NCBI GenBank assembly: GCA_016931085.1
Contig: JAFGFO010000352.1
Location: 1-18,107, forward strand
Origin: Thermoflexales bacterium
GTDB lineage: Bacteria; Chloroflexota; Anaerolineae; Fen-1058
DNA: 18,107 nucleotides
Reading direction: 5' to 3'
Made by a program: the position numbers and the translations under genes. Below the pieces are notes generated by a model. It searched no databases, was not told where the DNA came from, and saw only the letters and a program-made list of their open reading frames with translations. Shown piece by piece: positions 4,807 to 17,456 of this stretch (the first letter of the stretch is position 1; each line of letters begins with the position of its first letter).

Positions 4807-6470
4807 TATTCTACGCTCAAAATGTATTGGTAATGCGGTTGCCCACCCTCGACGACTTCGACGGTCAGCTCCGGCATGTGCTGGCGGATGGCTTCAGCCA
4901 GGGCTTGCGCCTGCATGCTGCTGACCGCGTCACCATAATACAGGGTGATGATTTCGCGTGCCTGGCTGTTCATCCGCTCGATCAGTTGCCACACGACGCC
5001 CTCGATCGTTTGCCCTGTCGCCACCAGGTGGTCGTCGAGCAGGCCGATCGCCTGCCCCTGGTCAACCTGCAGGCCATTGATTTCTACTGCGCGGGTGGCG
5101 ATGGTCACTTCACCGGTCTGGACTCTGGTGGCGGCGGCCTGCATGGCCGCCACGTTGTCTTCCAGATCGACGTGCGGGTTGAACGCGAGCTGGGCGGCGA
5201 TCCCTTGCGGGATGGTGTGGGTCGGGATTACCCTGACCTGCTTGTCGCCGACCAGCTCGGCGGCCTGGCGGGCGGTCATCACCACGTTGCTGTTGTTGGG
5301 CAGCAGGATGGCGCGCTCGGTCGGCAAGGACTTGAGCGCTTGTACGAACTGCTCGGTGCTGGGATTCATCGTCTGGCCGCCGGGGATGATCACGCTCGTG
5401 CCCAGGCTGTGGAATACGCGTGCCAGGCCATTGCCCGGCGCCACTACGACGGTGGCGACCTGGTCCGGCACGATGTTCAGCTCGGGCGCAATCACGGGCG
5501 CTGCTGCGCGCCCCATGATGAATTCCTGGTACTGGGCTTGCATATCTTCGACGACCACGTCGCGCAGGCTGCCCAGGGCGGCTGCGTAGCTGAGGGGCAC
5601 GCCAGGATCGGCCACGTGGACGTGCACCTTGATCGCTTCCGGCTCGCCGACGATCAGGGCGGATGGCCCCATGGCGCTGATGGCTTCGCGCATGGCGCCG
5701 GCATCCAGGCTCTGGCCGATGACGACGAACTGCACGTCGTAGATGTAGCCTCCCTCGACGTCCCCAGCCTCGATGTGGGCTGGAGCGTGCAGATCGACTG
5801 CCCCGGCCAGGGCGCTGTCGAACTCGACCGTCTCGCCGCGCAACCCGCGCAGCATACCTTCCAGGATAATGAAATAACCCTGGCCGCCGGCGTCCACCAC
5901 ACCGGCTTGCTTGAGCAGGGGCAGTTGGTTGGGCGTGCGAGCGACAGCCTCTTTGCCGCGTGTCACCATGCGTTCCAGGATGATGGTCATATCGTCCGTG
6001 TCTTGTACGGCCTCGGCACAGCCTTTGGCGATCTCGCGCGCGACAGTCAGGATCGTCCCCTCGACCGGCTTGACCACGCCTTTGTAAGCCGTGTCCGCGC
6101 CTTCTTGCATGGCCTGAGCCATGTTGTGGACGTTGAGAAGTTCTTGATCGGCCAGGCTGCGCGCAAAGCCCCGCCACAGTTGTGACAAGATGACGCCTGA
6201 ATTGCCGCGCGCGCCCATAAGCGCCCCATGGGCCAGGTTATGGGCCACTTTGCCCACGTGTGTTTCGGGTGACTGCTCGATTTCTGCCCAGGCTGACTGC
6301 ATCGTCAGCAGCATATTCGTCCCCGTGTCGCCATCGGGCACCGGAAAAACGTTCAGGGCATTGATGGCTTGCTGATGGTGATGCAGCCACGCCAAGGCTA
6401 CTTTGACCAGTTGTTTCAATCCCTGCCCGTTCACGGTCAACAGCGCTTGTGTATGATGTTCGTCGCTCAA
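4806..6470 (-). CDS. fakA: Fatty acid kinase catalytic subunit FakA (DAK2 domain, YloV-like)
   Basis: FakA phosphorylates fatty acids bound to FakB, using ATP. The protein has 554 residues, the usual length. The N-terminal DhaL/DAK2 domain carries NVFPVPDGDTGTNM, with the metal and nucleotide-binding acidic cluster DGDTGTNM at 46-53, and GARGNSGVILSQ further on. A middle domain and a C-terminal DegV-like region ending in YQYILSVE follow. The start is a TTG at 6470 with GAGG five bases upstream. It lies 117 bp after the yloU stop, a gap that contains an inverted repeat, and overlaps fakB by one base. The yloU-fakA order is conserved in Firmicutes, where the pair is called yloU-yloV. Confidence 0.92.
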   Translation of the reverse strand: MSDEHHTQALLTVNGQGLKQLVKVALAWLHHHQQAINALNVFPVPDGDTGTNMLLTMQSAWAEIEQSPETHVGKVAHNLAHGALMGARGNSGVILSQLWRGFARSLADQELLNVHNMAQAMQEGADTAYKGVVKPVEGTILTVAREIAKGCAEAVQDTDDMTIILERMVTRGKEAVARTPNQLPLLKQAGVVDAGGQGYFIILEGMLRGLRGETVEFDSALAGAVDLHAPAHIEAGDVEGGYIYDVQFVVIGQSLDAGAMREAISAMGPSALIVGEPEAIKVHVHVADPGVPLSYAAALGSLRDVVVEDMQAQYQEFIMGRAAAPVIAPELNIVPDQVATVVVAPGNGLARVFHSLGTSVIIPGGQTMNPSTEQFVQALKSLPTERAILLPNNSNVVMTARQAAELVGDKQVRVIPTHTIPQGIAAQLAFNPHVDLEDNVAAMQAAATRVQTGEVTIATRAVEINGLQVDQGQAIGLLDDHLVATGQTIEGVVWQLIERMNSQAREIITLYYGDAVSSMQAQALAEAIRQHMPELTVEVVEGGQPHYQYILSVE

Positions 6471-6490
6471 TTTTTCCTCGGATAAAACGC

Positions 6491-6583
6491 TATCCGCTAA
6501 TCTCCGCGAATCTACACGAATGATTGATGAACATTAGCGATAGGATTTGCTTCGAATCCTCATTAGCGTGAATTCGCGGATAA
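6491..6583. repeat. Inverted repeat with central hairpin in the yloU-fakA gap
   Basis: The left part (6491-6522) holds TATCCGCTAATC, CGCGAAT and ACACGAATG. The right part (6561-6583) holds CATTAGCGTG and AATTCGCGGATA, which is the left part reversed in pieces (CGCGAAT with ATTCGCG). The centre forms a clean hairpin: AGGATT 6542-6547, a seven-base loop, and AATCCT 6555-6560. It shares the CACGAAT word with the repeat at 11018-11050. No T-run follows on the minus strand, so read-through from yloU into fakA is expected. Confidence 0.6.
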
Positions 6584-6587
6584 AAAT

Positions 6588-6941
6588 TTAATCCGGGTTG
6601 CTCACGCGCAGCCCCTGCACGTGGACGTTGACGCGCGCGACAGGGACGCCCAAGGCGCGTTCGACACTGTATTTGACGACCTTCATGATGCTGTGGGCCA
6701 CGGACGAAATGCGCGTCCCATACTCGATGGTGACATAGATGTCGATCACAATCTCGTTGCCCTCCATGCGAACCTCGACGCCCCGCTGAGCCTCGCTCTG
6801 CAAAGCTTGGACAAAGCCATCGGCAATGTTCTTGGTGGCCATGCCCACCACGCCATACGAGCTAAGTACGGCCTGGCGAGTGATGGTCCCTACGACAGCC
6901 GGTGATATATCGATTTTACCTAAGGTGGTTTCTTCTGACAC
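6588..6941 (-). CDS. Asp23/Gls24 family envelope stress protein (YloU-like)
   Basis: This 117-residue protein belongs to the Asp23/Gls24 family, small cytoplasmic proteins often linked to cell-envelope homeostasis; the biochemical role is not settled. Seen are the family signatures ISPAVVGTITRQAVLSSYGV near the N-terminus and EIVIDIYVTIEYGTRISSVA, followed by VARVNVHVQGL at the C-terminus. It has no signal peptide or membrane segment. The start is a GTG at 6941 with a strong AGGAGGT four bases upstream. It is the first gene of the minus-strand operon with fakA and diverges from rpmB. I could not identify a convincing promoter for it in the repeat-filled gap. Confidence 0.88.
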   Translation of the reverse strand: MSEETTLGKIDISPAVVGTITRQAVLSSYGVVGMATKNIADGFVQALQSEAQRGVEVRMEGNEIVIDIYVTIEYGTRISSVAHSIMKVVKYSVERALGVPVARVNVHVQGLRVSNPD

Positions 6942-6973
6942 ACAAACCTCCTCTCATTCGACTCAGGGCACGT

Positions 6974-7070
6974 GCGCTTTGCCTCACCAGTAACGAAGGC
7001 GATGCGCCATTCGGAAATGGCGGCAGCGCGGGTCTTGCCCCTGAGACCTTTAAACCTGAAACCTGCAACT
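6974..7070. repeat. Composite dispersed module, intergenic copy: hairpin plus heptamer array
   Basis: The hairpin CGCCATT-cgga-AATGGCG (about 7005-7022) is followed by a period-7 array on the minus strand (7041-7070) with units GGTTTCA and GGTTTAA. The segment aligns along its length with 14011-14098 inside the yfhO-like gene, sharing CTCACC, AAGG, ATGC, CCATTCGGAA, TGGC and GCAGC in the same order before the heptamers. It fills most of the divergent yloU/rpmB intergenic space. Confidence 0.65.
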
Positions 7071-7081
7071 CTCTAAGCCCC

Positions 7082-7110
7082 TTGCACAAAACAAGGTCCT
7101 GTGGTATCAT
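7082..7110 (+). promoter_or_regulatory. Promoter of rpmB, sigma-70 type
   Basis: TTGCAC (7082-7087), a 17-base spacer, then TATCAT (7105-7110) with TG one base upstream (extended -10). The transcript should begin near 7117, about 54 bases before the rpmB start. A small dyad, CCTTG (7080-7084) with CAAGG (7092-7096), overlaps the -35 box. Confidence 0.7.
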
Positions 7111-7123
7111 CTGCCTGCTCTAA

Positions 7124-7143
7124 AGGCCCAGTTCGATGGGCCT
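7124..7143 (+). promoter_or_regulatory. Leader hairpin upstream of rpmB
   Basis: AGGCCCA (7124-7130) pairs exactly with TGGGCCT (7137-7143) across a six-base loop, GTTCGA. A run of six T follows eight bases later (7151-7156), just before the ribosome site. The spacing is loose for an intrinsic terminator, but a leader attenuator or a ribosomal-protein binding hairpin is possible. Function is inferred from position only. Confidence 0.4.
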
Positions 7144-7170
7144 CATTCAATTTTTTGTGAGGTGATGAAA

Positions 7171-7356
7171 ATGGCAAAATGTCAACTCTGTGGCAAGGGA
7201 CCCCAATTCGGTCATAGCGTCAGCCATTCCAAGCGCGCCACAAATCGGCAGTTCAAGCCCAATATTCACAAGCACTGGGTTGTAGTGGAAGGGCAAAAGC
7301 GCCATTTGTACTTGTGTACCCGCTGCCTGCGTACGCTCAACAAGATCGACAAATAG
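7171..7356 (+). CDS. rpmB: 50S ribosomal protein L28, zinc-binding type
   Basis: L28 is a small protein of the large ribosomal subunit. The 61-residue product begins MAKCQLCGKGP and has two CxxC pairs, C4/C7 and C49/C52 (LYLCTRCL), the four-cysteine zinc form of L28. The conserved HSVSHSKRATNRQFKPNI and the RTLNKIDK end fit the family. The ATG at 7171 is chosen over GTG 7162 and ATG 7165 because GAGGTG (7159-7164) lies six bases before it and the protein then begins MAKC as usual. The gene has its own promoter and terminator, so it is a single-gene transcript divergent from yloU. Confidence 0.96.
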   Translation: MAKCQLCGKGPQFGHSVSHSKRATNRQFKPNIHKHWVVVEGQKRHLYLCTRCLRTLNKIDK

Positions 7357-7387
7357 GCAGCCGTTCCATTCCCACGTTGTGCTACAG

Positions 7388-7418
7388 TGCACCGGGCTTG
7401 GCCGGTGCATTTGTTTTT
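7388..7418 (+). terminator. Intrinsic terminator of rpmB
   Basis: An eight-base-pair stem, TGCACCGG (7388-7395) with CCGGTGCA (7402-7409), has a six-base loop and is followed by TTTGTTTTT (7410-7418). It starts 32 bases after the rpmB stop. On the other strand, behind rpe, no T-run follows the same hairpin. Confidence 0.85.
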
Positions 7419-7427
7419 AATGTGCTT

Positions 7428-8099
7428 TTAACCCTCGTCGGCCGCGGCGCGAATCTGCCGGATAGCTTCGGCAACCCCTTGCGGGGCAGTGAAGATCGCT
7501 GAACCGGCTACCAACACGCGCGCGCCCGCTCTCACCACGGCTCGGCTGGTCCTGGGGCTGATGCCCCCATCTACTTCCAACTCCACGCTGGGCTTGCTTT
7601 TATCCAGCAGCGCGCGCGCCTGCTCGATCTTGCTCAGCATGCGCTCGATAAAGGCTTGGCCGCCAAAGCCGGAATTGACCGTCATCACCAGCAGTAGATC
7701 GATGTCTGGCACGATTTCTTCAATCGTCCACAACGGTGTGGCCGGGTTGAGCGTCACGCCAGCCCGGCAGCCCAACTCGTGGATCTGCTGGATCGTGCGG
7801 TGCAGATGGGGGCAGGTCTCGACGTGTACCGTCAAGATGTTTGCCCCCGCCCGCGCAAAGCGCTCCAGGTAGTGCTCAGGCTCGACGATCATCAAGTGGA
7901 CGTCGAGCGGCAAGCTGGTCGAGCGGCAAGCTGCTTCGACCACGAGTGGGCCAACTGTGATGTTGGGTACAAAACGCCCATCCATGACGTCGACGTGGAT
8001 ATAGTCGGCTCCTCCTGCCTCGGCCTGGGTGATCTGTTCGCCCAGGCGAGTAAAGTCGGCGGCCAGGATGGACGGCGCGATTTTAATCTGCGTTGACAT
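7428..8099 (-). CDS. rpe: Ribulose-phosphate 3-epimerase
   Basis: Rpe interconverts ribulose 5-phosphate and xylulose 5-phosphate in the pentose phosphate pathway. The 223-residue TIM barrel has [10 protein letters not shown] at the N-terminus. The metal ligands are H35 and D37 (HVDVMDG), H68 (DVHLM) and D177 (VDGGI). NSGFGGQ, which lies over the active site, and the phosphate-binding VAGSAIF near the end are also present. The ATG at 8099 has no ribosome-binding site; instead a strong promoter places the predicted transcription start at about 8101-8099. The gene follows rlmN by 56 bp on the same strand, so it may be read both from its own promoter and from the upstream one. Confidence 0.97.
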
Positions 8100-8107
8100 C
8101 GGGGTTA

Positions 8108-8136
8108 ATGATACACTGCTATGCAGAAAAAATCAA
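8108..8136 (-). promoter_or_regulatory. Promoter of rpe, predicted leaderless start
   Basis: On the minus strand TTGATT (8136-8131), exactly 17 bases, then TATCAT (8113-8108). An AT-rich tract directly upstream (GTTTTTTAAAAAC at about 8139-8151) could act as an UP element. Only eight bases separate the -10 box from the rpe ATG at 8099. Confidence 0.65.
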
Positions 8137-8155
8137 GGGTTTTTTAAAAACTCGT

Positions 8156-9223
8156 TCACACGGCGTGCCCTTCGCGCTGGCGCAGTTGGCCGCAGCCAGC
8201 CTGGATGTCCAGGCCGCGCCGCAGGCGCAGGGTGTGGGGGATTCGACCCTCCAGGACGGCGCAGAAGGCCTCGAGGCGCTTGCGCCTCGAGGCCACGCCG
8301 GAAAACTCCGCTGTGGGATTGAGTGGGATCAGGTTGACGTGGCATACCAGGCCCTTCACCAGCTTGAGAAGCACACGTGCTTGCTCGGGGCTGTCGTTGA
8401 CGTTTTCGATCAGCGCCCACTCGAAGCTGACGCGGCGATGGGTCCGCGCGCTGTAATCGCGCACGGCTTGCATCAGGCTCGACAGCGGATAGCGCTTGTT
8501 GACCGGCACGAGCCGATCGCGCAGCTCGTCTGTGGCGGCGTGCAGCGAGATGGCCAGGTTGATCTGCAACGCTTCCCTGGCCAGTTTCTGGATGCCCGGC
8601 GTCAGTCCGACGGTGCTGACCGTCATGCGTCGCGCACCCAGGTTGAAACCGGCCGGGTCGTTCAGCCGCCGGGCGGCCTGCACAAAGTTGTCGTAATTGG
8701 CCAAGGGCTCGCCCATGCCCATAAAGACGACGTTAGATAGTGGGCTTGGGTGCTTGGCCGGAGCTTGGTGTGGAGCGGCGCGGGCTAGACTGAGAACCTG
8801 TTCGACGATCTCGCCGGCGCTCAGGTTGCGCTGCAGGCCACCCTGGCCGGTGGCGCAAAAAGAGCAGCCCATCGCGCAGCCGGCCTGGGTGGAAACGCAG
8901 ACGGTACAGCGCTTGTCGTAAGTCATCAGCACGCTTTCGACCTGCGCGGCACCGGGCAGCTCAAAGAGTGACTTGCGGGTGTAGCCATCTGAGGACACTT
9001 GCTCGCTTACAGGCCGCAGGCGGCTGAAACTGAAAGCCCCGTTCAGCTTGTCCCGTAGTGGGAGGGGCAGGTCACTCATCTCGTCGAAAGACGCGGCCAG
9101 CTTGTGATACAGCCAGGCCCATATCTGCCTGGCGCGGTAGGACGGCTGCCCCCACTCGCTCAGGCACGCCTGCAGCTCGTCGAAGGAGAGATCAAAGATG
9201 CCTGGTCTTGCGTCACTGTTCAT
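8156..9223 (-). CDS. rlmN: 23S rRNA (adenine2503-C2)/tRNA methyltransferase RlmN
   Basis: RlmN is a radical SAM enzyme that methylates C2 of A2503 in 23S rRNA and A37 in some tRNAs. In the 355-residue form the radical SAM cysteines CAMGCSFC fall at about 116, 120 and 123, and the C-terminal catalytic cysteine in QAGCGQLR at about 344. Other family motifs are FMGMGEPLANYD, TVSTVGLTPGI and NLAISLHA. ATG 9223 (MNSDARPG) is preferred over an upstream in-frame GTG at 9247, because that GTG lies inside the hairpin repeat 9243-9305; the ribosome site for 9223 (GGAA) is weak, so the start is uncertain. The stop of the upstream HAD gene is 31 bp before it. The 3' third contains a 28-base palindrome. 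Confidence 0.95.
   Translation of the reverse strand: MNSDARPGIFDLSFDELQACLSEWGQPSYRARQIWAWLYHKLAASFDEMSDLPLPLRDKLNGAFSFSRLRPVSEQVSSDGYTRKSLFELPGAAQVESVLMTYDKRCTVCVSTQAGCAMGCSFCATGQGGLQRNLSAGEIVEQVLSLARAAPHQAPAKHPSPLSNVVFMGMGEPLANYDNFVQAARRLNDPAGFNLGARRMTVSTVGLTPGIQKLAREALQINLAISLHAATDELRDRLVPVNKRYPLSSLMQAVRDYSARTHRRVSFEWALIENVNDSPEQARVLLKLVKGLVCHVNLIPLNPTAEFSGVASRRKRLEAFCAVLEGRIPHTLRLRRGLDIQAGCGQLRQREGHAV
8267..8294. repeat. 28-base palindrome inside rlmN
   Basis: GGCCTCGAGGCGC (8267-8279) pairs exactly with GCGCCTCGAGGCC (8282-8294) around a central TT. It encodes ASRRKRLEAF in the RlmN C-terminal region, a stretch whose Arg-rich character is normal for the family. It may be coincidence of codon choice or a structure in the mRNA. 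Confidence 0.55.
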
Positions 9224-9242
9224 CGTGGCTGTTCCGAAGATG

Positions 9243-9305
9243 GCCACAGAGGATTTAACTCTGTGTCCGCCAATCCCCTGCGGGGATTGGATGTGTCTCT
9301 GTGGC
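9243..9305. repeat. Hairpin repeat with alternative stems at the HAD/rlmN junction
   Basis: CCAATCCCC (9270-9278) pairs with GGGGATTGG (9282-9290) across a three-base loop. The outer arm GCCACAGAG (9243-9251) pairs with CTCTGTGGC (9297-9305). Its CACAGAG (9245-9251) can instead pair with CTCTGTG (9259-9265), so two folds exclude each other. The element encodes the last 16 or so residues of the HAD protein and overlaps the leader of rlmN. Confidence 0.65.
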
Positions 9306-10151
9306 GGAAATTCTTGTCTTCCACGCTTGCATCAAATCGCTAATGTCCTCAAAGATCAGGTCCGGCCCGTTGGGGTAACGCTCGGCCTCGGCACGGCTCT
9401 GCACGCCGCTGCACACGAAAATCGTCGTCAACCCGGCTCGCTGGCCGCCTTCGATGTCGGTCTCCAGCCGGTCGCCGAGCATGGCCACCTGGGCCGCCTC
9501 CAGGCCCAAGCGTTTCATGGCTTGCTCAAAGACGATCTGGCCCGGCTTGCCAATGATCATAGGCTCGACGTCGGTGGCCGCTTGCAGAAAGGCCAGCGTC
9601 GCGCCGTTGCCCGGCAGCAAGCCGTACTCGCTGGGCCAGGTGCGGTCGGCGTTAGTGCCCACGAAGCAGGCCCCGCCTCGGATCAGCAGCGTGGCGCGCG
9701 TCAGCTTCTCCCACGTCAAGCGCCGATTCCAGCCGACGATGACGTAATCGGCCAGCTTGTCTATCTTGACGCCCAACGGCACGGCTTCTTCGGGTACGAT
9801 GACCAGGCCGCGCTCGGCCAGCGCGCTCTCCAAGGCCGGCTCGCCGATGACGAAGGCGCGCGCGCCCGGTGATAGAGCGGCCAGGTGCTCGGCGGCGGCT
9901 TCGGCCGTGCACGAGATCTCGTCTTGTGGGACCGTCACGCCAAAGCCGGCCAGCCGCTCGACATAGTCCGCCGATCTCTTGCTGGCATTGTTGGTCGCCA
10001 AGATGAGCCGGATACCGGCCTGGCGCAGAAAGCTCACGAAATCGACCAGGCCTGGCATGGGCTGGTTGCCCCGCCATAGCACGCCGTCCATGTCAGAGAT
10101 CAACCCGCGGATCGTGCCAAGCCTGGATAAAGGTGTCGAACTTTTAACCAT
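9255..10151 (-). CDS. HAD-IIA family phosphatase (NagD / nitrophenylphosphatase-like)
   Basis: A cytoplasmic hydrolase of the haloacid dehalogenase superfamily, subclass IIA. In the 298-residue form the nucleophile motif is LISDMDGVLW (D20 and D22); LATNNAS is motif II, IIGKPG carries the motif III lysine, and MLGDRLETDI is motif IV. The substrate (sugar phosphate, phosphoglycolate or nucleotide monophosphate) cannot be told from sequence. ATG 10151 is chosen because GAGGAG lies ten bases upstream, while the longer frame beginning at 10190 starts inside the -10 box. The last residues, about HPIPAGDWRTQS, are encoded by the hairpin repeat and look unlike a normal HAD end. It is the first gene of a minus-strand unit with rlmN and possibly rpe. 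Confidence 0.9.
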   Translation of the reverse strand: MVKSSTPLSRLGTIRGLISDMDGVLWRGNQPMPGLVDFVSFLRQAGIRLILATNNASKRSADYVERLAGFGVTVPQDEISCTAEAAAEHLAALSPGARAFVIGEPALESALAERGLVIVPEEAVPLGVKIDKLADYVIVGWNRRLTWEKLTRATLLIRGGACFVGTNADRTWPSEYGLLPGNGATLAFLQAATDVEPMIIGKPGQIVFEQAMKRLGLEAAQVAMLGDRLETDIEGGQRAGLTTIFVCSGVQSRAEAERYPNGPDLIFEDISDLMQAWKTRISATETHPIPAGDWRTQS

Positions 10152-10188
10152 CGTTAGTGTACTCCTCAAAAGATTTGCTTGCAACGTC

Positions 10189-10217
10189 ATTGTAACAGAG
10201 AACGCCTAGTCCTGCAA
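10189..10217 (-). promoter_or_regulatory. Promoter of the HAD-rlmN unit
   Basis: On the minus strand TTGCAG (10217-10212), 17 bases, then TACAAT (10194-10189), with TG one base upstream of the -10 box (extended -10). The expected transcript start near 10182 leaves a leader of about 30 bases before ATG 10151. This placement excludes the longer reading of the gene. Confidence 0.65.
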
Positions 10218-10223
10218 TCGTGG

Positions 10224-10256
10224 CTTGAACCCTTAAACCTGCAACCCTTAACCTTG
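10224..10256. repeat. Period-7 heptamer array in the divergent HAD/GT2 promoter region
   Basis: On the minus strand the units are GGTTAAG, GGTTGCA, GGTTTAA and then GGGTTCAAG. It is the same family as arrays at 7041, 11431, 14072 and 14443. It lies between two back-to-back promoters and its plus-strand end supplies part of the -35 box of the GT2 promoter. Confidence 0.65.
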
Positions 10257-10282
10257 TCAAGCCGGCCAAGCCAGTGTATGAT
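10254..10282 (+). promoter_or_regulatory. Promoter of the glycosyltransferase cassette
   Basis: TTGTCA (10254-10259), 17 bases, TATGAT (10277-10282). The predicted transcript start near 10289 leaves about 26 bases before the GT2 ATG, with GGAGGA close upstream of the start. Confidence 0.65.
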
Positions 10283-10314
10283 AGGGCCTGCTCAGATTAC
10301 TGTTGGAGGAACGC

Positions 10315-10995
10315 ATGAAACTCAGTGTCGTGATGCCGGTTTACAACGAGCGGGATACGATCCGCGAGATCCTGCGCCAGGTACGGGCGGTGGGCCGCGC
10401 CGACGAGATCATCGTCGTGGACGATGGGTCGGTGGATGGGACGCGCGATATTTTGCGCGAGGAAGCGCAGCAAGGCGACCTCGTTCTGATCTTGCACGAT
10501 AAAAACATGGGCAAGGGCGCGGCCGTCACCACCGGCTTCCAACACGCCACAGGCGATGTCGTCTTGATCCAGGATGCTGACCTGGAATACGACCCACGCG
10601 ACTACCCGACGCTGCTGCGCCCCATCGAAGAGGGGCGCGTGGCGGTGGTGTACGGCAGCCGCTTCTTGGGACCCCACAAGGCCATGTTGTTCTGGCATAT
10701 GCTGGGCAACCAGTTCCTGACGCTGGTGACCAATGTCATGTTCAATGCTATCCTGAGCGATATGGAAACCTGTTACAAGGTGCTGCGCGCCGACGTGGCC
10801 AAAAGCCTGAACTTGCGCTCGCACGGCTGGGGCATCGATCCCGAGATCACCGCCAAGGTGCTCAAGCAGGGACACCGTATTTTTGAAGTGCCCATCAGCT
10901 ACTATGGCCGCGAGTACTCGGAAGGCAAAAAGATCACCGCGTTCGATGGCTTTCGGGTGTTATGGACACTGATCAAATATCGCCTGGTGGATTAG
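10315..10995 (+). CDS. Family 2 glycosyltransferase, polyprenyl-/dolichyl-phosphate sugar synthase-like
   Basis: Likely transfers a sugar from a nucleotide sugar to a polyprenyl phosphate at the inner face of the membrane, giving the donor for extracytoplasmic transferases. The 226-residue GT-A fold shows SVVMPVYNERDTI, VVDDGSVDGT (D36, D37), NMGKGAAVTTGF and the metal-binding QDADLEYDP (D87, D89), then MTCYK-like METCYKVLRAD and GWGIDPEITAK, all typical of DPM1-like enzymes. There is no C-terminal membrane pair, so it is the soluble DPM1 type, not the GtrB/CsbB type. ATG 10315 follows GGAGGA; an in-frame TTG at 10303 is less likely. It is the first gene of a cassette with a GT-C transferase and a YfhO-like protein. 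The sugar is unknown. Confidence 0.92.
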   Translation: MKLSVVMPVYNERDTIREILRQVRAVGRADEIIVVDDGSVDGTRDILREEAQQGDLVLILHDKNMGKGAAVTTGFQHATGDVVLIQDADLEYDPRDYPTLLRPIEEGRVAVVYGSRFLGPHKAMLFWHMLGNQFLTLVTNVMFNAILSDMETCYKVLRADVAKSLNLRSHGWGIDPEITAKVLKQGHRIFEVPISYYGREYSEGKKITAFDGFRVLWTLIKYRLVD

Positions 10996-11017
10996 GCGTT
11001 GTACAGGTTAAATAGAT

Positions 11018-11050
11018 CACGAATGGCACGAATATACGAATTTCACGAAT
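11018..11050. repeat. CACGAAT word array with period near 9
   Basis: CACGAAT occurs at 11018, 11027 and 11044, with a variant TACGAAT at 11035. The reverse word ATTCGTG is at 11120-11126, inside the first codons of the next gene. The 119-base gap between the GT2 and GT-C genes otherwise shows no promoter or terminator that I can support. Confidence 0.6.
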
Positions 11051-11114
11051 GTTTGCTTTTTCCCAAAAGCCTGCCTTTATCCCAATGCGTGTCATCCGCT
11101 TCGGAGTCCAATGA

Positions 11115-12737
11115 GTGACATTCGTGATTAAAAACGGCCATCAAGACGTTCTCTCTCGGCGACAGTGGGCGCTGGTTGCCTTGTGCCTGGTGGCTTTTGG
11201 CCTGCGGCTGCCGCCGCTGTGGGCCGACCGCTTTCACCCCGACGAGGCCTTGTATGCCTCGTGGGGCTTGCTGATCCGCACCGGGCGTGACGTGTGGCTG
11301 AGCAGCCAGGCCGCCGACAAGCCCCCCGTGGCGTTTTACCTCATGGCGCTGTCCTTCAACTACGTCTGGCGCTGCGAGGCGGCGGCCCGCCTGCCGGGGC
11401 TGCTGGCCGGAACGCTGTGCGTGCCTTTGGGGTTTCAGGTTTCAGGTTCAAGGTTTAAGGATGTCGCCTGGGTGACGGCCGCCCTGGTGGCGTTCTCGCC
11501 TTATATGATCGCTTTTTCGCCGACGGCCTTCCTCGACCCGTTGATGGTGGCCTTTGCCCTGGCGGCCTGGGCGGCGGCCGGGCGGGGACGCGCGTTCCTG
11601 GCCGGCATCTTGCTGGGCTTGTCGGCGGCCACCAAGCTGACCGGCCTGCTGTTCTTGCCGCTGGTGGGGTTTCAAATCGCAACTCGCGCGCCATTAAGGA
11701 ATGGCCTGTCGCAACTAGCCAATCGCAAATTTGGATCGGGCCTTGTGGTGGTGCTTGCGTTGGTGCTGATTTGGGATCGCGTCAAGGGGGGGACGCCCTT
11801 CTGGGTGCAGCAGGCGATCAATTACGAGGGCGCGCGCCTCGTCCCCCTGGCCGAAGCGCTGCCCCGCCTCCAGGCCTGGCTGTCGTTTTTTCCCTACTTT
11901 TTCGGCCGCCCTGCCCTGGTCGCGTTCGCCATCATAGCCGTCGTCCAGCTCGTGCTTTGCGTTTTACGTTTCACGTTTTACGCCTGCCCTCGCGGCGAAG
12001 CAAAGAGGGTTTCACGTTTTACGCTTCACGTCTCAAGCCTCAGTCGCCAGGCGTGGCTGCCCTGGCTGGGCTTTGGCCTGTTTTACCTGGCCGTGCACTG
12101 CCTGCTGGCGTTCCAATTGTGGGATCGTTACCTGCTGGGCCTGGTGCCCGTGGCGGCGCTGCTGGCTGCGCACATCACGGCTCGCTTTGTTTCAGGCTTT
12201 ACGTTTTATATCATCCCGAGCTTGCCGAGGGACGTTTCACGTTTCACGCCTTATATCATCCCGAGCTTGCCGAGGGACGTTTCACGTTTTATGTCATCCC
12301 GAGCTTGCCGAGGGACGTTTTACGTTTTGCTCCTCATCCTCCTGCTGCCGCCTGCCCTCACCGCCGCCGGCAGCGGCTACCCTGTCGGCGGCGACCACGG
12401 CGCCTACGACGGCATCGAGGGGGTGGCGGACTACCTGCGTGCCCGGCCGGAGGGCACGGTTGTCTACGATCACTGGCTGGGCTGGGAGTTCAGGTATTAT
12501 CTTTGGGACGCGCCGGTGTACGTCGCGCATTTTCCCGAGCCGGGCTGGCTGCGCGACGATTTGCGGCTTTGGGGCCAGTCTGCCCCGCGCTACGTCACCG
12601 TGCCGGCCTACGTCTCGGCTGATCCCGTCTTGGAGGCGGTGGCCCAGGCTGGCTTTGGGGCTTCGCCTGTGCTGGCGACGATCAGCCGGCGCGGCCAGCC
12701 GACGTTCACAGTATACGAGATTATACCAGGGAAGTAA
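11115..12737 (+). CDS. GT-C membrane glycosyltransferase, PMT_2/ArnT-like (GT39/GT83 type)
   Basis: Predicted polytopic transferase using a lipid-phosphate-linked sugar at the outer face of the membrane. The 540 residues give about ten hydrophobic segments. The first outer loop has the acidic motif RFHPDE (HPDE 41-44) and DKPP at 68-71, typical of this superfamily. The start is GTG 11115, with GGAG eight bases upstream; ATG 11111 is closer to the usual codon but runs into a stop after six codons. Four loops (about residues 106-115, 186-207, 282-310 and 361-405) are encoded by dispersed repeats and look unlike normal family sequence. The gene lies 119 bp after the GT2 gene and three bases before the yfhO-like gene. 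Acceptor unknown. Confidence 0.85.
   Translation: MTFVIKNGHQDVLSRRQWALVALCLVAFGLRLPPLWADRFHPDEALYASWGLLIRTGRDVWLSSQAADKPPVAFYLMALSFNYVWRCEAAARLPGLLAGTLCVPLGFQVSGSRFKDVAWVTAALVAFSPYMIAFSPTAFLDPLMVAFALAAWAAAGRGRAFLAGILLGLSAATKLTGLLFLPLVGFQIATRAPLRNGLSQLANRKFGSGLVVVLALVLIWDRVKGGTPFWVQQAINYEGARLVPLAEALPRLQAWLSFFPYFFGRPALVAFAIIAVVQLVLCVLRFTFYACPRGEAKRVSRFTLHVSSLSRQAWLPWLGFGLFYLAVHCLLAFQLWDRYLLGLVPVAALLAAHITARFVSGFTFYIIPSLPRDVSRFTPYIIPSLPRDVSRFMSSRACRGTFYVLLLILLLPPALTAAGSGYPVGGDHGAYDGIEGVADYLRARPEGTVVYDHWLGWEFRYYLWDAPVYVAHFPEPGWLRDDLRLWGQSAPRYVTVPAYVSADPVLEAVAQAGFGASPVLATISRRGQPTFTVYEIIPGK
11431..11460. repeat. Heptamer array inside the GT-C gene
   Basis: Tandem units GGTTTCA (twice), then GGTTCAA and GGTTTAA, plus GG. 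It encodes about FQVSGSRFKD in a loop between two membrane segments. Orientation is opposite to the copies at 7041, 10224 and 14072. Confidence 0.75.
11671..11734. repeat. Hairpin module with three TCGCAA words inside the GT-C gene
   Basis: The hairpin GCCATT-aagg-AATGGC (11690-11705) resembles CGCCATT-cgga-AATGGCG of the 7005 module. TCGCAA occurs at 11677, 11709 and 11723. It encodes a polar loop, about FQIATRAPLRNGLSQLANRK, between two hydrophobic segments. Confidence 0.5.
11960..12042. repeat. Composite: heptamers, GC-rich dyad, heptamers, inside the GT-C gene
   Basis: Heptamers CGTTTTA, CGTTTCA, CGTTTTA (11960-11980) are followed by a segment with CCCTC (11988-11992) and GAGGG (12005-12009) as complementary ends. 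Five more units follow (12008-12042): GGTTTCA, CGTTTTA, CGCTTCA, CGTCTCA, AGCCTCA. All are read without a stop. Confidence 0.65.
12195..12329. repeat. Three tandem copies of a 27-base dyad element separated by heptamers
   Basis: Identical 27-base elements with core TCCCGAGCTTGCCGAGGGA start at 12211, 12256 and 12294. Each is flanked by CGTTTCA/CGTTTTA heptamers. The offsets are 45 and 38 bases, so copies 1 and 2 are read as IIPSLPRDV and copy 3, shifted, as SSRACRGTF. The third frame would give HPELAEGRF; none has a stop. Confidence 0.9.
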
Positions 12738-12740
12738 GCT

Positions 12741-15700
12741 ATGCTGGCCGTATTGCGTAGTGCGTATTCCGACAATGGATCAGGTGCAACGCACCTTAAA
12801 GGTGCGTTGCACCTATGCCTTGCCTGCCTGGACGGCCTGGGCTTGCTGGCCCTGGTCGTGCTCGTCTTTTGGAAGCTGGCGCTGACCAACCTCGTCATCG
12901 CGCGCGGCGACGTGTTGACGTACTTTTACCCCTACTTGGATTACGCCGCCGAGGCGACGCGGCAGGGACGGCTGCCGCTTTGGAACCCCTACTTGTTCAT
13001 GGGCGTGCCCTTCCTGGCCAACAGCCAGGCCGGTTTCTTCTACCCCCTCAATCGCCTGCTATCGTGGCTGGCGGTGACGCGCGCGGTCAGTGTGACGATC
13101 GTGCTGCACGCCTGGCTGGCTGGTCTGGGCGCGTATGCCCTGGCGCGGAAAAGCTTGCGCTTGGGGCGGGCGGCCGCCTGGACGGCCGGGGCGGCCTTTG
13201 CCGCCGGCGGCTGCCTGGCGGCCCAGGTCGAGCACGTCAACCAGTTGCAGGGCCTGGCCTGGCTGCCGTGGCTGGTGGTGTGTTTTGACGGCTGGAGAGA
13301 CGCAAGCTCCGCCCCCGGCCTGCGGAGGGCGTGGCTTGGGCTGGTGCTGATCGTTGCCTTGCAACTGCTGGCCGGACACACTCAAACGGCCTTTATCAGC
13401 CTGTTTGGCTTGGGCGTGTATGTTGTGTTGAGTTGCCCGCTTCGCCCGTGGCGGGCCTGGGGCCGGCAGTTGGCCGCGCTGGCCGGCGCCGTGCTGCTGG
13501 GCGCCGGCCTGGCGGCCGCGCAGCTTCTGCCCACTTTCGAGCTGACCCGCTGGTCAATCCGCAGTGAGGGCTTGAGCTGGCGCGAGGCCGTGTCGTTCTC
13601 GCTCAAGCCGTCCCTATTGGGGCGGGCGCTGCTGCCGGGTTATGGGCAGGCGCTTTTCCCCGAGTACGTGGCTTATCTTGGCCTGGCCGGACTGGCCCTG
13701 GCAGCCGTGGGACTGGCGGCTGCCTGGCGGGGTAGGGGGGTGCGGCCGGCGTCGAGGCGCCTGCTCGCATTGGCCGTGTTGGCCGGCCTGGGGCTGTTCT
13801 TTGCCCTGGGAGCCTATAACCCGGTTTACCTCCTGCTGGTCCGCTTCGCGCCAGGCTTTGGGCTGTTCCGCGTCCCGGCGCGCTGGTTGGCCTGCTACGC
13901 CTTTGGGATGGCTTCGCTGGCCGGCGCGGGGCTTGATTGGCTGGCCAGGTCCACTTTTGGAAGCGGTACGTATGAGCGCCCGCTTCCAAGTGGTACGCTT
14001 CCGAGCGATCCGCTTCTCACCAAGAACAAGGATGCCGCACCATTCGGAATTGGCAGCATTGTGAGTCTCGCGCTTGAAACCTTAAACCTGACACTTGCGC
14101 CTGCGCGCAGTGCAGGTGAACCTGAAACGATTTTCCGTTTAGCCTTGGTGGGATGGGGGGCGGCCTGCGCGGCGTTGGCTACCCTGGCCTTTTACGCGGC
14201 CAACACGCTGGTGCCCGGCCCGGACCAGCCCGCCGGCTACCTGAACGCCGCTACCTGGGGTGGCTGGCTGGTCGCCGCCGGCCTCGTCATCTTCTCGCTC
14301 TGGAAGCGCCCGCGCTGGGGAGGGCTTGCGCTGCTGGGGGTGATGGTGGTCGAGTTGTTCGCGGCCAGCTTGTCCCTGCCCTTCAACCGCGCCACCGCGC
14401 CCGAGGCGCTCACCAGCCTCCGCCCCTCGATACTGGGCCTCAAGTCTCAGGTTTCAGGGTTCAGGTTCCTGTCGCTCTCGGACATCTTTTTCGACCCCGG
14501 CGACAAGGCCGAGCTGGAGAGCGCGTTTGCCGACCAGTTGAGCGCGGACGCCTTTTACGACCTTTTGGTCGCCACCAAGCAAAAAGAGATCGTCGCGCCC
14601 AACTTGCCCTTGTACTATCGCCTGCCGGGCGCGGATGGCTTCGATGGGGGCATTTTGCCGCTGCGCGACTATGTGCGCTTTCAGGTGTTGTTCATGCCGC
14701 CGGGCGAAACCAGCCCAGACGGGCGCTTGCGCGAAGTGCTGCGCGACGTGCCTGACGGGCGCTGGTTGTCATTGATGAACGTGCGCTACGTCATCACCGA
14801 CAAGACGCTGGATGGGTGGGTGGACGGGGTGTTTTACGACCTGCAATTCAGCACATCACTGAGGCTGGGCGGCGCAAGCATGCCGGCCATCGCGCCAGCA
14901 GTTGCTGCCGTGGCCCGCGTGCCGCGCTTTGAGGCGACTGCCCTGGGCGTGGTGAGTTACCTGCAAGGCGCGGCTCATCTGCCGCAGGGCACGCCCGTGG
15001 CCCAGGTCGTCCTCGGCTTTGACGATGGGACGAGCCAGGCTTTTGTCCTGCGCGCTGGGGTGGAGACGGCCGAGGGAGTATACACGGACGATGTGGCGCA
15101 CCGGCTGGCCCAAGTGGGCGGGCACTTTGTGCGCGACCACCCCGAAATCGCCGATTACGTCACACGGCTGCGCTGGGGCGAGCCGCGCGGCATCGTGTCG
15201 GTCGAGGTGCGGCCCTGGCTGGAGTCGCCCGCTTCCGGGGAGGCGGGTGAGCTGGTCCTGCGCGGTGTCTCGCTCATTGACGAGGCCGCCGACAAGGCCG
15301 GCGGCGGCAGCAGTTTTCAATCGCTGGTCATCTCTGGACGGGGGCGTTTTGCCCGCGTGCACTCGGGCGACGTCAAGATATACGAAAACCTGGGCGTGCT
15401 GCCGCGCGCCTTTGTCGTGCCGGAGGCCATTGTGAGCGAGGGCGACGCGGCGCTTACGGCCATGCGCGACCCAGGCTTTGACCCGGCCCGTCAGGTTCTC
15501 CTGGAGCAGCCGCTGACCGCGCCACCCACCGCGCCGTGCCTGGCCTGCGTCTATACGGCGACGCTGGCGCTGTACCAGCCCGAACGGGTCGTGGTGGACG
15601 TGGAGGCAAGCGGCCCCGGCTGGCTGGTGTTGACCGACAGTTATTACCCCGGCTGGCGCGCTTCTTTGGACGGCCAGCCGGTCTCGATCTCGCGGGCCGA

Positions 15701-15869
15701 CCTGCTCTTTCGGGCCGTCCCCGTGCCGGCCGGCGCGCACCGGGTTGAGTTTATCTACGATCCACTCTCGCTCAAACTGGGGGCGGCCATCAGCCTGCTG
15801 GCATTGGCGGTGGCGGGCCTGGCCGGCATCAGCGTTCATCTGCGTTTATCTGCGTCCCAAAAAGAATGA
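12741..15869 (+). CDS. YfhO-family polytopic membrane protein (putative GT-C glycosyltransferase)
   Basis: YfhO-type proteins are large GT-C-like membrane proteins; B. subtilis YfhO uses a lipid-linked sugar made by CsbB to glycosylate lipoteichoic acid. The 1042 residues contain about a dozen hydrophobic segments up to 530 or so, a long outer domain, and a last helix near 1020-1030. The family motif around RGDVLTYFYPYLDYA (from residue 56) and RLPLWNPYLFMGVP is clear, as is the C-terminal YYPGWRASLDGQPV followed by PAGAHRVEFIYDPL. ATG 12741 follows the preceding stop by three bases with GGGAAG upstream. Residues about 1-25 and 404-463, and a stretch near 568-577, are repeat-encoded. Its last 41 bp overlap the convergent flavoprotein gene. 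The enzymatic role is inferred from family and cassette. Confidence 0.85.
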   Translation: MLAVLRSAYSDNGSGATHLKGALHLCLACLDGLGLLALVVLVFWKLALTNLVIARGDVLTYFYPYLDYAAEATRQGRLPLWNPYLFMGVPFLANSQAGFFYPLNRLLSWLAVTRAVSVTIVLHAWLAGLGAYALARKSLRLGRAAAWTAGAAFAAGGCLAAQVEHVNQLQGLAWLPWLVVCFDGWRDASSAPGLRRAWLGLVLIVALQLLAGHTQTAFISLFGLGVYVVLSCPLRPWRAWGRQLAALAGAVLLGAGLAAAQLLPTFELTRWSIRSEGLSWREAVSFSLKPSLLGRALLPGYGQALFPEYVAYLGLAGLALAAVGLAAAWRGRGVRPASRRLLALAVLAGLGLFFALGAYNPVYLLLVRFAPGFGLFRVPARWLACYAFGMASLAGAGLDWLARSTFGSGTYERPLPSGTLPSDPLLTKNKDAAPFGIGSIVSLALETLNLTLAPARSAGEPETIFRLALVGWGAACAALATLAFYAANTLVPGPDQPAGYLNAATWGGWLVAAGLVIFSLWKRPRWGGLALLGVMVVELFAASLSLPFNRATAPEALTSLRPSILGLKSQVSGFRFLSLSDIFFDPGDKAELESAFADQLSADAFYDLLVATKQKEIVAPNLPLYYRLPGADGFDGGILPLRDYVRFQVLFMPPGETSPDGRLREVLRDVPDGRWLSLMNVRYVITDKTLDGWVDGVFYDLQFSTSLRLGGASMPAIAPAVAAVARVPRFEATALGVVSYLQGAAHLPQGTPVAQVVLGFDDGTSQAFVLRAGVETAEGVYTDDVAHRLAQVGGHFVRDHPEIADYVTRLRWGEPRGIVSVEVRPWLESPASGEAGELVLRGVSLIDEAADKAGGGSSFQSLVISGRGRFARVHSGDVKIYENLGVLPRAFVVPEAIVSEGDAALTAMRDPGFDPARQVLLEQPLTAPPTAPCLACVYTATLALYQPERVVVDVEASGPGWLVLTDSYYPGWRASLDGQPVSISRADLLFRAVPVPAGAHRVEFIYDPLSLKLGAAISLLALAVAGLAGISVHLRLSASQKE
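12782..12814. repeat. Perfect 16-bp-arm palindrome in the start region of the yfhO-like gene
   Basis: AGGTGCAACGCACCTT (12782-12797) pairs exactly with AAGGTGCGTTGCACCT (12799-12814) around one A. It encodes about GATHLKGALHL, before the first membrane helix. The stretch before it (12750-12771, ATTGCGTAGTGCGTATTCC) also looks like a repeat fragment. Confidence 0.8.
13951..14129. repeat. Composite in-frame repeat block in the yfhO-like gene
   Basis: It starts with the inverted repeat CCACTTTTGGAAGCGG (13951-13966) against CCGCTTCCAAGTGG (13980-13993), with a two-base bulge. The second copy of the 6974-7070 module follows (14011-14098), including CCATTCGGAATTGG and the heptamer array 14072-14096. 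A further heptamer pair is at 14117-14129. It encodes a polar loop of about 60 residues between hydrophobic segments. Confidence 0.65.
14443..14471. repeat. Heptamer array in the yfhO-like gene
   Basis: Units GGTTTCA, GGGTTCA and GGTTCCT follow AGTCTCA. It encodes about SQVSGFRFL, nearly the same peptide as the 11431 array in the neighbouring gene. Confidence 0.65.
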
Positions 15870-16326
15870 ATGGCGCCTGCCACGTGAGCTCTTCGTTCAC
15901 CATGGTACGCTTATAATTGATGACTTCCAGCCTTTCCGGAACGACCTTGATGAGAATCAAGTACTTCCAATCCGGAAAAGCCTGCTCCCAATAATCTCTT
16001 TTCCGCTTCAGTATCTCGCTCATCTCGTCCACCAGAAAGGCCTTGCCGCTGATGGTCACGTATCCAGACGCCTCCTTATGGTCGGCGTAGTAAAGGCAAA
16101 CCTGAGGGTTGGCTCGGATTTCTTGCACCTTTCGGCATCGGCTGTTGGTGGCGATCCAGACCGTCATATCGTCTTCGGGCGGGAACGGGTTCATCGTTCT
16201 CACCTGGGGGCGCCCTGATGAATCGACGGTGACCAGTGCGCAATACGTTTGCAGGCCCATGATCTCCCTGGCCGCCGCAATCACCGCGTCGCGTTCGGCC
16301 GGGCTGGCCGCTTCTTTCTGTTCCAT
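15829..16326 (-). CDS. Pyridoxamine 5'-phosphate oxidase-like flavoprotein (general stress protein 26 type)
   Basis: A small split-barrel protein that probably binds FMN or a related flavin cofactor; such proteins reduce or bind diverse substrates, and the true substrate is not readable here. The 165 residues show IMGLQTYCALVTVDSSGRPQ, MNPFPPEDDMTVWIATN, NPQVCLYYAD and YVTISGKAFLVDE in the usual order. It resembles the COG3871 group, not the vitamin B6 enzyme PdxH itself. ATG 16326 is chosen for GGGAGG seven bases upstream; the open frame back to 16515 runs through the divergent rarD promoter and is not homologous-looking. The C-terminus QINADER comes from the repeat shared with the end of the yfhO-like gene. 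No clear promoter was found. Confidence 0.82.
   Translation of the reverse strand: MEQKEAASPAERDAVIAAAREIMGLQTYCALVTVDSSGRPQVRTMNPFPPEDDMTVWIATNSRCRKVQEIRANPQVCLYYADHKEASGYVTISGKAFLVDEMSEILKRKRDYWEQAFPDWKYLILIKVVPERLEVINYKRTMVNEELTWQAPFILFGTQINADER
15834..15858. repeat. Tandem ATCTGCGT/ATCTGCGT repeat shared by two convergent gene ends
   Basis: ATCTGCGTTTATCTGCGTCC (15838-15857) is a duplicated ATCTGCGT word, a motif I recall as a common dispersed intergenic repeat in related genomes. It encodes HLRLSAS at the end of the YfhO-like protein and TQINADE on the other strand at the end of the flavoprotein. Confidence 0.6.
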
Positions 16327-16469
16327 ACTATTTCCTCCCTGGGTGTTCACAATGATCTGCCGGGTATTGAGCCTAGCTTGGTGATCTTGTAAGAATCTCC
16401 GTGTTATTCTTGTATACGAGATTAATCTTACCACAAAGGCAGAAATTTGCTGCCGGCCCTGGGGGTGAT

Positions 16470-16498
16470 TTGTACCAAAACTGCCCTTGTGATAAAAT
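16470..16498 (+). promoter_or_regulatory. Promoter of rarD, predicted leaderless start
   Basis: TTGTAC (16470-16475), 17 bases, TAAAAT (16493-16498), with TG one base upstream of the -10 box. Nine bases separate the -10 from the ATG at 16508, so transcription should begin at about 16505-16508. There is no ribosome-binding site. Confidence 0.65.
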
Positions 16499-16507
16499 GA
16501 GTTTCTT

Positions 16508-17398
16508 ATGAACAAGGGTATTGGATACGCGGTGGGGGCCTATACGCTGTGGGGCCTCTTGCCGGTGTATTGGAAATGGCTGCAGCAGGTGCCGGCGCCG
16601 CAGTTGATCAGCCACCGCGTCGTGTGGTCGTTTCTGTTCCTGTGCGGCGTGCTGGGCTTCTCGCACCGGGCGGTGGCCTTTCGCGCGGCCATCCGCCAGC
16701 CGCGCCTGCTGGGTTGGTATTGTGTGGCCGGGGCCTTCCTCAGCGTCAACTGGCTGGTCTATGTGTGGGCGGTCAATGCCGGCTTTATTCTCGAGACCAG
16801 CCTGGGTTACTTTATCAACCCGCTGCTGAGCGTTGTGCTGGGAGTGGTCTTTTTGCGCGAGAGCCTGCGTCCGTGGCAGTGGGCCGCGGTCGGTGTGGCG
16901 GCCGCCGGCGTGTTGTACCTGGCGCTTGCTTATGGCGCTTTGCCTTGGATCGCGCTCACGCTGGCCCTGAGCTTTGGCAGTTATGGCCTGGTCAAAAAGA
17001 TCGCCCCACTTGGCTCGCTGTACGGGCTGACCTTGGAGACGGGCCTCTTGCTCGTCCCGGCACTGGCCTATCTGCTCTATTCGGAAGCGATGGGGCAGGG
17101 GGCATTTCTGCACGCCGGCACTCTGTCCGATTGGCTCATGGTTGGCGCTGGGCCGATAACCGCTGTCCCGCTGTTGATGTTTGCCGCCTCCGCGCGGCGT
17201 ATTCCGCTATCGCTGGTGGGTGTTCTCCAATATATCACGCCGACGCTGCAATTCCTGTTGGGGGTGCTGGTTTACCATGAGCCGTTCACAGCCGGCCGCT
17301 TGATCGGCTTTGGCATCGTCTGGACGGCGCTGATCGTGTTCGCCGCCGAGAGCGCGCTGTTCCGCCGGGCACGGCCTGTGGCAGCTCAAGCGAGCTGA
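16508..17398 (+). CDS. rarD: EamA/DMT-superfamily permease RarD
   Basis: RarD is an inner-membrane protein of the drug/metabolite transporter superfamily; it was first linked to chloramphenicol sensitivity, but its natural substrate is not firmly known. The 296 residues give ten hydrophobic segments. The conserved start MNKGIGYAVGAYTLWGLLPV, with YWKW after it, and later SHRVVWSF, NWLVYVWAVN and ETSLGYFINPL, followed by LQYITPTLQFLLGV, match RarD closely. The strong match at the N-terminus fixes ATG 16508 as the start even though no ribosome site precedes it. It diverges from the flavoprotein gene and converges on the GXGXG-domain gene. A small hairpin, CAGCTC (17382-17387) with GAGCTG (17392-17397), covers the stop codon. 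Confidence 0.93.
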   Translation: MNKGIGYAVGAYTLWGLLPVYWKWLQQVPAPQLISHRVVWSFLFLCGVLGFSHRAVAFRAAIRQPRLLGWYCVAGAFLSVNWLVYVWAVNAGFILETSLGYFINPLLSVVLGVVFLRESLRPWQWAAVGVAAAGVLYLALAYGALPWIALTLALSFGSYGLVKKIAPLGSLYGLTLETGLLLVPALAYLLYSEAMGQGAFLHAGTLSDWLMVGAGPITAVPLLMFAASARRIPLSLVGVLQYITPTLQFLLGVLVYHEPFTAGRLIGFGIVWTALIVFAAESALFRRARPVAAQAS

Positions 17399-17456
17399 GC
17401 GTCATGGAAGGCGCGCCTACGGGGACCGGACGTCGCACACTGTCGCGTATGGAGCG

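Follow-up and report, generated by a model that had tools for sequence, protein, structure and literature searches.

An 18,107-nucleotide (nt) stretch from a Thermoflexales bacterium of the Chloroflexota (assembly GCA_016931085.1, contig JAFGFO010000352.1, positions 1 to 18,107 of the forward strand), referred to here as the window, encodes a predicted GT-C glycosyltransferase whose gene contains four blocks of repetitive DNA. Very probably, these blocks are dispersed repeats of the intergenic kind, heptamer arrays and short hairpin cores, which have entered the gene and add translated sequence to its product. The reading frame is open through all of them, two of the four loops concerned are longer than in every homologue compared, and similar arrays occur in other genes and genomes, where a single loop of a housekeeping enzyme can hold different repeat words in related species and is free of the stop codons that such words would be expected to bring.

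Repeat blocks within the glycosyltransferase gene

The gene lies between a family-2 glycosyltransferase gene and a gene for a YfhO-like membrane protein. Its product passes the curated family profile PF13231 (28.6 bits, cut-off 26.1), and a profile built from its homologue alignment (A1) matches GPI mannosyltransferase 1 (E 0.00027). An AlphaFold2 model (mean predicted local distance difference test score, pLDDT, 83.8) has ArnT (5f15 and 5ezm) as its best PDB matches, with a template modelling (TM) score of 0.55. On profile and model, the 540-residue product is a predicted PMT_2/ArnT-type GT-C glycosyltransferase, which would be translated and folded with its repeat-coded segments in place. 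The gene and its repeats are as follows:

11115..12737, + strand: GT-C glycosyltransferase open reading frame (ORF), 540 residues (PMT_2, ArnT-like fold), from the profile match and the AlphaFold2 model
11426..11462, + strand: block 1, period-7 array GTTTCAG GTTTCAG GTTCAAG GTTTAAG in loop 1 (at least 17 of 21 positions matching)
11671..11735, + strand: block 2, GCGCCATTAAGGAATGGC hairpin flanked by AATCGCA words in loop 2, the weakest block
11954..12046, + strand: block 3, CCCTC..GAGGG core with GTTTYAC heptamers on either side in loop 3 (array 11954-11983)
12188..12329, + strand: block 4, CATCCCGAGCTTGCCGAGGGACGTTT present three times alongside GTTTYAC heptamers in loop 4 (exact word copies)
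11013..11060, no strand assigned: CACGAAT words (11018, 11027 and 11044) directly upstream of the gene

The original prediction, made from the sequence alone, held that the frame stays open through the blocks and that about 100 of the 540 residues may be repeat-coded. The ORF indeed has no stop from end to end, and the count comes to 111 of 540 (residues 106-116, 186-207, 281-311 and 359-405). As had also been proposed, the blocks lie between hydrophobic segments: in the model they sit between predicted helices or at helix ends. Their guanine-plus-cytosine fraction is 0.495, against 0.672 in the remainder of the ORF.

Period-7 arrays, for which at least 17 of 21 positions must match, are present in block 1 (11426-11462) and block 3 (11954-11983). 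The whole window has three such arrays, whereas 300 dinucleotide shuffles of it averaged 0.01; shuffling the codon order of the gene produced a period-7 array in 0 of 1000 trials, and synonymous reshuffling produced two arrays in 0 of 1000. Chance as the origin of the arrays is ruled out by these three kinds of shuffle. Block 4 is repetitive in another way, with a 26-nt word present in three exact copies (12212, 12257 and 12295) at spacings of 45 and 38 nt, which differ by one heptamer. The first two copies share a frame and the third is read in another, so that they translate as IIPSLPRDVSRF, IIPSLPRDVSRF and then SSRACRGTF; the repeated unit is therefore DNA and not peptide, and a peptide-level repeat is ruled out. 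All three plus-strand frames are open in blocks 3 and 4, with stops in all three minus-strand frames. Block 2 is supported by a GCGCCATT..AATGGC hairpin, resembling hairpins at 7004 and 14031, and by a pair of AATCGCA words found nowhere else in the window. The description of all four blocks as repeat-like thus holds for blocks 1, 3 and 4, while block 2 fails the period-7 test and has only its hairpin and word pair.

Less of the proposal that the blocks consist of the same words as the DNA between genes could be upheld inside the window. The block 1 word GTTTCAG, found in reverse complement between genes at 7056, and the block 2 hairpin are the only words to recur there. Clustered GTTTYAC and the CATCCCGAGC core of blocks 3 and 4 occur within the window only inside the GT-C gene, with single GTTTYAC words scattered elsewhere.

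The called GTG start at 11115 is preceded by GGAG and adjoins repeat-like DNA, CATTCGTGA (11101-11130); the first codons of the gene may be repeat-derived themselves.

Loop lengths and topology in homologues

The window protein was aligned with the top-scoring 29 of 773 homologues, and each loop was measured from anchor to anchor. Loops 3 and 4, at 64 and 72 residues (45-53 and 41-54 in the homologues), each exceed all 29 in length, and blocks 3 and 4 are therefore extra sequence, that is, insertions. The length of loops 1 and 2 is ordinary, with 23 and 13 of the 29 homologues respectively equal or longer, and blocks 1 and 2 are repeat-like fillings of variable loops. The expectation that the block residues would be gaps in homologues is consequently borne out for loops 3 and 4 only. 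Conserved residues flank every block on both sides.

The suggestion that non-conserved loops act as landing sites fared better. Judged by eye and on protein alone, homologue loops contain repeat-like peptides of their own, namely SPIPNRQSPFPNPQSPITN in loop 3 of P0002, CHSEQSKESF in loop 1 of P0024 and NQKSEIRNQKL in loop 2 of P0030. Among 25 DNA loci of the GT-C family from the nearest order, seven have a period-7 or period-8 array inside the ORF. Two carry other arrays in loop 4 (L022, ATCGTCA, 80 nt; L025, GTGGTCT), one has a repeat in loop 3 (L016), and in four (L018, L026, L029 and L030) arrays lie near the N-terminus. Five loci found via P0002, at 28-29% identity, contained no period-7 array at 17 of 21 positions.

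It is extremely improbable that the gene is decaying or that the blocks are assembly errors. The data are draft and mostly resemble metagenome-assembled genomes, and one GT-C locus (L008) has an internal TGA; against this stand the full-length ORF, the conserved residues on either side of each block, the confident fold, the absence of internal stops from 24 of the 25 GT-C loci and from all 38 matches to HisF (below), and the recurrence of the same pattern in many assemblies.

Counting helices from the N-terminus places all four blocks on one face of the membrane and the invariant residues (D43-E44, P136-D141, W220-N236 and W336-Y339) on the opposite face. The model was oriented by ArnT, whose active side we take to be periplasmic. 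The blocks are thus probably cytoplasmic and the active side periplasmic, with the reservation that some helices are short, which makes the helix count uncertain.

Arrays across related genomes

The few named organisms among the protein matches of the window are Anaerolineae, Thermoflexales, Chloroflexi or Chloroflexota. The nearest order was found through RecG, the window protein being 56-59% identical to the RecG of its six best-scoring genomes. Three GTTTYAC units in a row, with one mismatch allowed, are present in 18 of 56 genomes of this order, with up to 126 matches per genome, while the reversed motif gave none except for two in one genome. Arrays of any word were then counted in 1.45 Mb from six of these genomes (loci L064-L121 and L152-L171), one of which (G433) has no GTTTYAC match and another of which (G421) was represented by contigs picked for such matches, so that array density is biased. 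Genes were predicted with a home-made dicodon finder, and gene edges are accordingly rough.

This survey yielded 286 arrays, 220 of period 7 and 66 of period 8, compared with 39 for periods 5, 6, 9, 10, 11 and 13 together. Intergenic arrays number 144 and arrays across a gene edge 88; of the remainder, 45 are well within a gene and 9 close to its ends. Random placement would put 253 of the 286 in predicted genes, whereas 54 fall wholly within one; the arrays avoid coding sequence, yet occur there. An internal array is present in 30 of the 1152 predicted genes, and 10 of these 30 encode at least five hydrophobic stretches, compared with 14.8% of coding length (p 0.009). The common words GTTTYAC, AATTCAC, AATCTCC and ATTACCG contain neither GGG nor CCC, and a few arrays do hold G- or C-tracts (e.g. 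GGGGTGA and TTGCAGGG).

An earlier list from four of the genomes, which included near-end arrays, also had 30 host genes, and Pfam was applied to 18 of them; this set did not extend to the 12 others on that list or to ten genic arrays of G408 and G433. Fourteen of the 18 scored above a family cut-off, one below it (L104) and three had no match. The families comprise His_biosynth (which we take to be HisF from its motif), hydantoinase B, a xanthine-dehydrogenase-type oxidase, an aminotransferase, two GAF histidine kinases, an alpha-amylase, a DnaE-type polymerase, a PMT protein, an amidohydrolase, AroE, a PMT_2 protein, PtsI and YfhO. Arrays lie between domain matches in PtsI (from Pfam domain positions alone), AroE and the oxidase, and outside domain matches, near an end, in DnaE and the amylase. 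Other arrays lie inside a match that covers more residues in the protein than in the profile, as in HisF (248 vs 227), hydantoinase (544 vs 516) and the GAF domain of L113 (163 vs 133). That the repeats spare housekeeping genes, as the original prediction had it, must be rejected, given arrays within HisF, AroE, PtsI, hydantoinase B and DnaE of related genomes.

The block 4 core, searched for with a free tetranucleotide, was found in 9 of 400 Chloroflexota genomes. This core, TCATCCCGAGCNNNNCGAGGGA, is dispersed in those genomes (e.g. G102:C9:70-143), and some of the G102 copies form inverted pairs 52 bp apart. It was found in none of 201 sampled loci.

Loop hotspots in HisF and AroE

HisF and AroE gave matches in 37 and 49 genomes respectively, and for each the loop was taken from the best 30 loci. 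Arrays occupy the HisF stretch AIDAxR..WEVYVSGGR at 12 of the 30 loci, their words including GGAGATT/AATCTCC, AATTCAC, ATCGGTA, GAGCAGT and AAGCCGC; loci without an array have either a short turn or an insert lacking arrays. The AroE stretch GAVNTIVV..GYNTDW contains arrays in 11 of 30. The array-bearing loops of both enzymes, which presumably are beta-hairpin turns, hold up to about 35 extra residues.

The words change quickly. With words assigned by eye and mapped on one quick tree of 22 genomes, built from the two protein cores with the loops excluded, the HisF word changed at least seven times and presence of an array at least three times; for AroE the figures are at least six and at least three. 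Array words differ even inside the tight clade G406-G410. These results bear on the idea that the repeat-coded loops are functional segments whose sequence is kept by selection. Reuse of the same loop in HisF, AroE and the GT-C proteins would fit such a role, but a single loop holds different words, and hence different peptides, in close relatives, the block 4 element is read in two frames, and 18 of 30 HisF and 19 of 30 AroE loci have no array at all, which together make it very improbable.

Missing stop codons

The HisF and AroE loops were located by homology in a search that reads through stops. All 38 HisF matches were stop-free. Four AroE matches were flagged for stops; in two the stops lie outside the loop, and in the other two a BLAST check found no stop in the aligned stretch, loop included. 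Ten further AroE-region stretches were also checked by BLAST.

Among 33 arrays in 23 loops, 13 would carry stops if they were perfect (24 stops, an expectation that is approximate where two words meet), and none was observed. In 183 intergenic arrays, 881 of 896 expected stops are present, summed over frames and strands. The absence of stops from genic arrays only, while intergenic arrays keep them, argues for translation, and the genic arrays appear to be translated as extra loop sequence. Such an absence would be needless if the blocks were cut from the messenger RNA, bypassed during translation or removed by protein splicing; no point in favour of any of these turned up, no direct search having been made, and we give them almost no credence.

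At the HisF locus L126 (G414), an array of a stop-bearing word has a substitution at the would-be stop codon, TTA for TGA.

Polarity and origin of the arrays

Where two arrays lie within 80 nt of each other (n = 56), 47 pairs run G-then-C, with the G-rich strand of each array pointing towards the junction, 2 run C-then-G, 4 C-C and 3 G-G (47 of 49 in the polarity test, p 4e-12). The junction is at most 12 nt in 41 of the 47 G-then-C pairs, and several pairs have different words on the two arms. Such fixed polarity points to a specific mechanism that makes or spreads the arrays. Polarised pairs with unlike arm words resemble fused telomere repeats.

Slippage, copying by a transposase and end-healing are each conceivable, and possible, sources of the arrays. 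Transposases of the RAYT kind may or may not be the driver: Y1_Tnp matches are found in 50 of the 56 genomes and correlate weakly with GTTTYAC counts (rho 0.27, p 0.04, uncorrected for kinship). For 39 of 45 genic arrays, the word also occurs in an intergenic array from the same sample; since the figure is already 22 of 45 for words read backwards, word sharing is mild support for copying, by which the genic arrays may have been dispersed from intergenic ones.

Slippage in place is the alternative to be taken most seriously: chance seeds in AT-rich loop codons would grow their own microsatellite, and nothing would land. In the accessible text of two reports (PMC4679880, PMC4692102), heptamers are described as the most frequent of the longer repeat units in most genomes, and slippage is proposed for them; array length and words also vary at a single site, as slippage would have it. 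It sits less well with the genic/intergenic sharing of words (although the control is weak), the polarity of neighbouring arrays, several with unlike words on their arms, and the recurrence of the 22-nt core of block 4 in distant genomes. We consider it possible, though unlikely.

A further, quite improbable, idea drawn from the anatomy of the arrays alone is that they are scars of telomere-like end-healing, in which G-rich 7- or 8-nt units would be added to 3' ends at a DNA break, with the template changing, and the ends would then be joined. If true, this would account for the polarity, the short junctions, the unlike arm words and the rapid word turnover at a given spot, and the in-frame scars in housekeeping loops would be survivors of random breaks.

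Persistence of repeats in reading frames

With the blocks read as dispersed repeats, we infer that entry into genes would be random and that all but the harmless cases would then be removed. A repeat would persist if its loop (in this protein probably a cytoplasmic one) were remote from the active site, if its orientation were stop-free or its stops had mutated away, and if the net change in length were a multiple of three. Since seven is not divisible by three, a heptamer array encodes the same seven-residue peptide whichever frame is used, so that only strand and total length decide survival. Arrays are then replaced quickly at the same loop, with an effect on the protein that is presumably close to neutral.

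Several points weigh against this interpretation. Blocks 1 and 2 add no net length, and block 2 is weakly repetitive. The GT-C protein shares 57% identity with its nearest homologue, so no near-identical empty site was seen for its gene. The exact block 4 core is absent from the 56 nearest-order genomes, one of which has two one-mismatch places, and the word-sharing control, as noted, discriminates weakly. The stop comparison used loops cut from open frames, so that the argument from missing stops leans on the stop flags of the HisF and AroE searches, and the 33 arrays are not independent, as some are common by descent (G406 and G410).

The neighbouring YfhO-like gene and intergenic elements

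The gene downstream is a second host of repeats, and related elements lie between genes of the window:

12741..15869, + strand: ORF of a YfhO-like membrane protein, 1042 residues, second host gene (PF09586, 70.4 bits; alignment A2 with 14 homologues)
14016..14097, + strand: repeat block inside the YfhO ORF; over the first 71 nt it is 72% like the intergenic stretch 6983-7053
14436..14471, + strand: period-7 array in the YfhO ORF, CTCAAGT CTCAGGT TTCAGGG TTCAGGT (period-7 scan)
6983..7072, no strand assigned: intergenic repeat element with a hairpin and CCTGAAA words, overlapped by no ORF of at least 90 residues
10224..10254, no strand assigned: repeat words between the ORFs 9255-10190 (- strand) and 10303-10995 (+ strand), overlapped only by the automatic ORF 10179-10502

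Thirteen of 14 homologues lack the peptide encoded by the block at 14016-14097, and the remaining one, P0122, has a different one; at the site of the period-7 array, P0122 has another repeat-like peptide, IKSQISNRKYQIANF (protein only). As P0122 is 85% identical in the alignment and has different fillings at both places, these YfhO loops change fast.

The first codons of the called YfhO ORF contain a 13-bp hairpin, GGTGCAACGCACC TTAAA GGTGCGTTGCACC (12779-12818), at a point where the N-terminus of P0122 is shorter and different; this could mean that the hairpin was inserted or that translation really starts further downstream. A YfhO-family gene of G421 (L119:6168-8957) resembles the window gene in having arrays at four places, with several words.

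Significance and comparison with known systems

Because one loop of a housekeeping enzyme holds different words in related species, and stops are missing from it, these genomes offer a natural, replicated experiment on non-coding DNA turning into protein. The HisF and AroE loops are shown to tolerate sizeable extra sequence. In protein databases of such bacteria, some stretches owe their similarity to DNA repeats and not to homology.

Parts of this picture are already known, namely selfish repeats in frame (Rickettsia, REPs) and dispersed heptamers (Xanthomonas, Nostoc, Chloroflexus). No title on heptamer arrays in frame in Chloroflexota protein loops was among the best-ranked open papers, a search whose scope excluded most subscription journals, and for many words, recurrent loop hotspots and word turnover we found no report in open papers.

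As for the protein itself, likeness to ArnT (5f15, 5ezm) lies in the overall fold (TM 0.55), which is what the comparison covers; the window protein has repeat-coded loops, probably on its cytoplasmic face.

Heptamer satellites, (GATAGRA)n, are scattered over the genome of Chloroflexus aurantiacus (PMC6749651), a likeness within the Chloroflexota, although they consist of a single word and in-frame loop insertions are not described in the accessible part of that paper. The TAACTGA tandem repeats of Beggiatoaceae are closer in one respect, as one orientation yields stops and the other a seven-residue peptide, which limits their placement in genes; they differ in being a single word that lies mostly just upstream of start codons, and the accessible text does not describe loop hotspots (PMC4679880).

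G-rich heptamers of Xanthomonas (GGGAATC) and Nostoc (GGGGAYT) likewise form dispersed arrays, mostly intergenic and some intragenic (PMC4692102). In Xanthomonas, 70 and 75 close pairs are convergent (few are in Nostoc), as 47 of 56 pairs are here. Each of those organisms has one word type, by contrast, and its G-tracts form quadruplexes in vitro; in the part of the report accessible, intragenic copies are counted and their strand noted, and frame, loop position and stops are not treated (PMC4692102).

The closest parallels for insertion in frame are the small palindromic repeats within protein genes known as Rickettsia palindromic elements (RPEs; Ogata 2000, as cited in PMC2229807) and the GTAG/CGTC repetitive extragenic palindromes (REPs) inside ORFs (PMC3733652). 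As far as the accessible text of these sources goes, dispersed repeats are there fused in frame into unrelated protein genes, genes for DNA synthesis included, with an effect described as neutral or slightly harmful (PMC2229807, PMC3733652), and they are palindromes of defined families, 105-146 bp long for RPEs and 20-40 bp for REPs. The repeats described here differ in being mainly tandem arrays of 7- or 8-nt units, with many words per genome and turnover of words at a single loop, and only block 4 has a recurrent 22-nt core. They resemble RPEs and REPs in having copies both between and within genes (144 of 286 arrays intergenic and 45 well inside genes in the six genomes) and, as far as sequence can tell, in being inserted in frame within conserved genes, where the flanks are conserved and the expected stops are missing.

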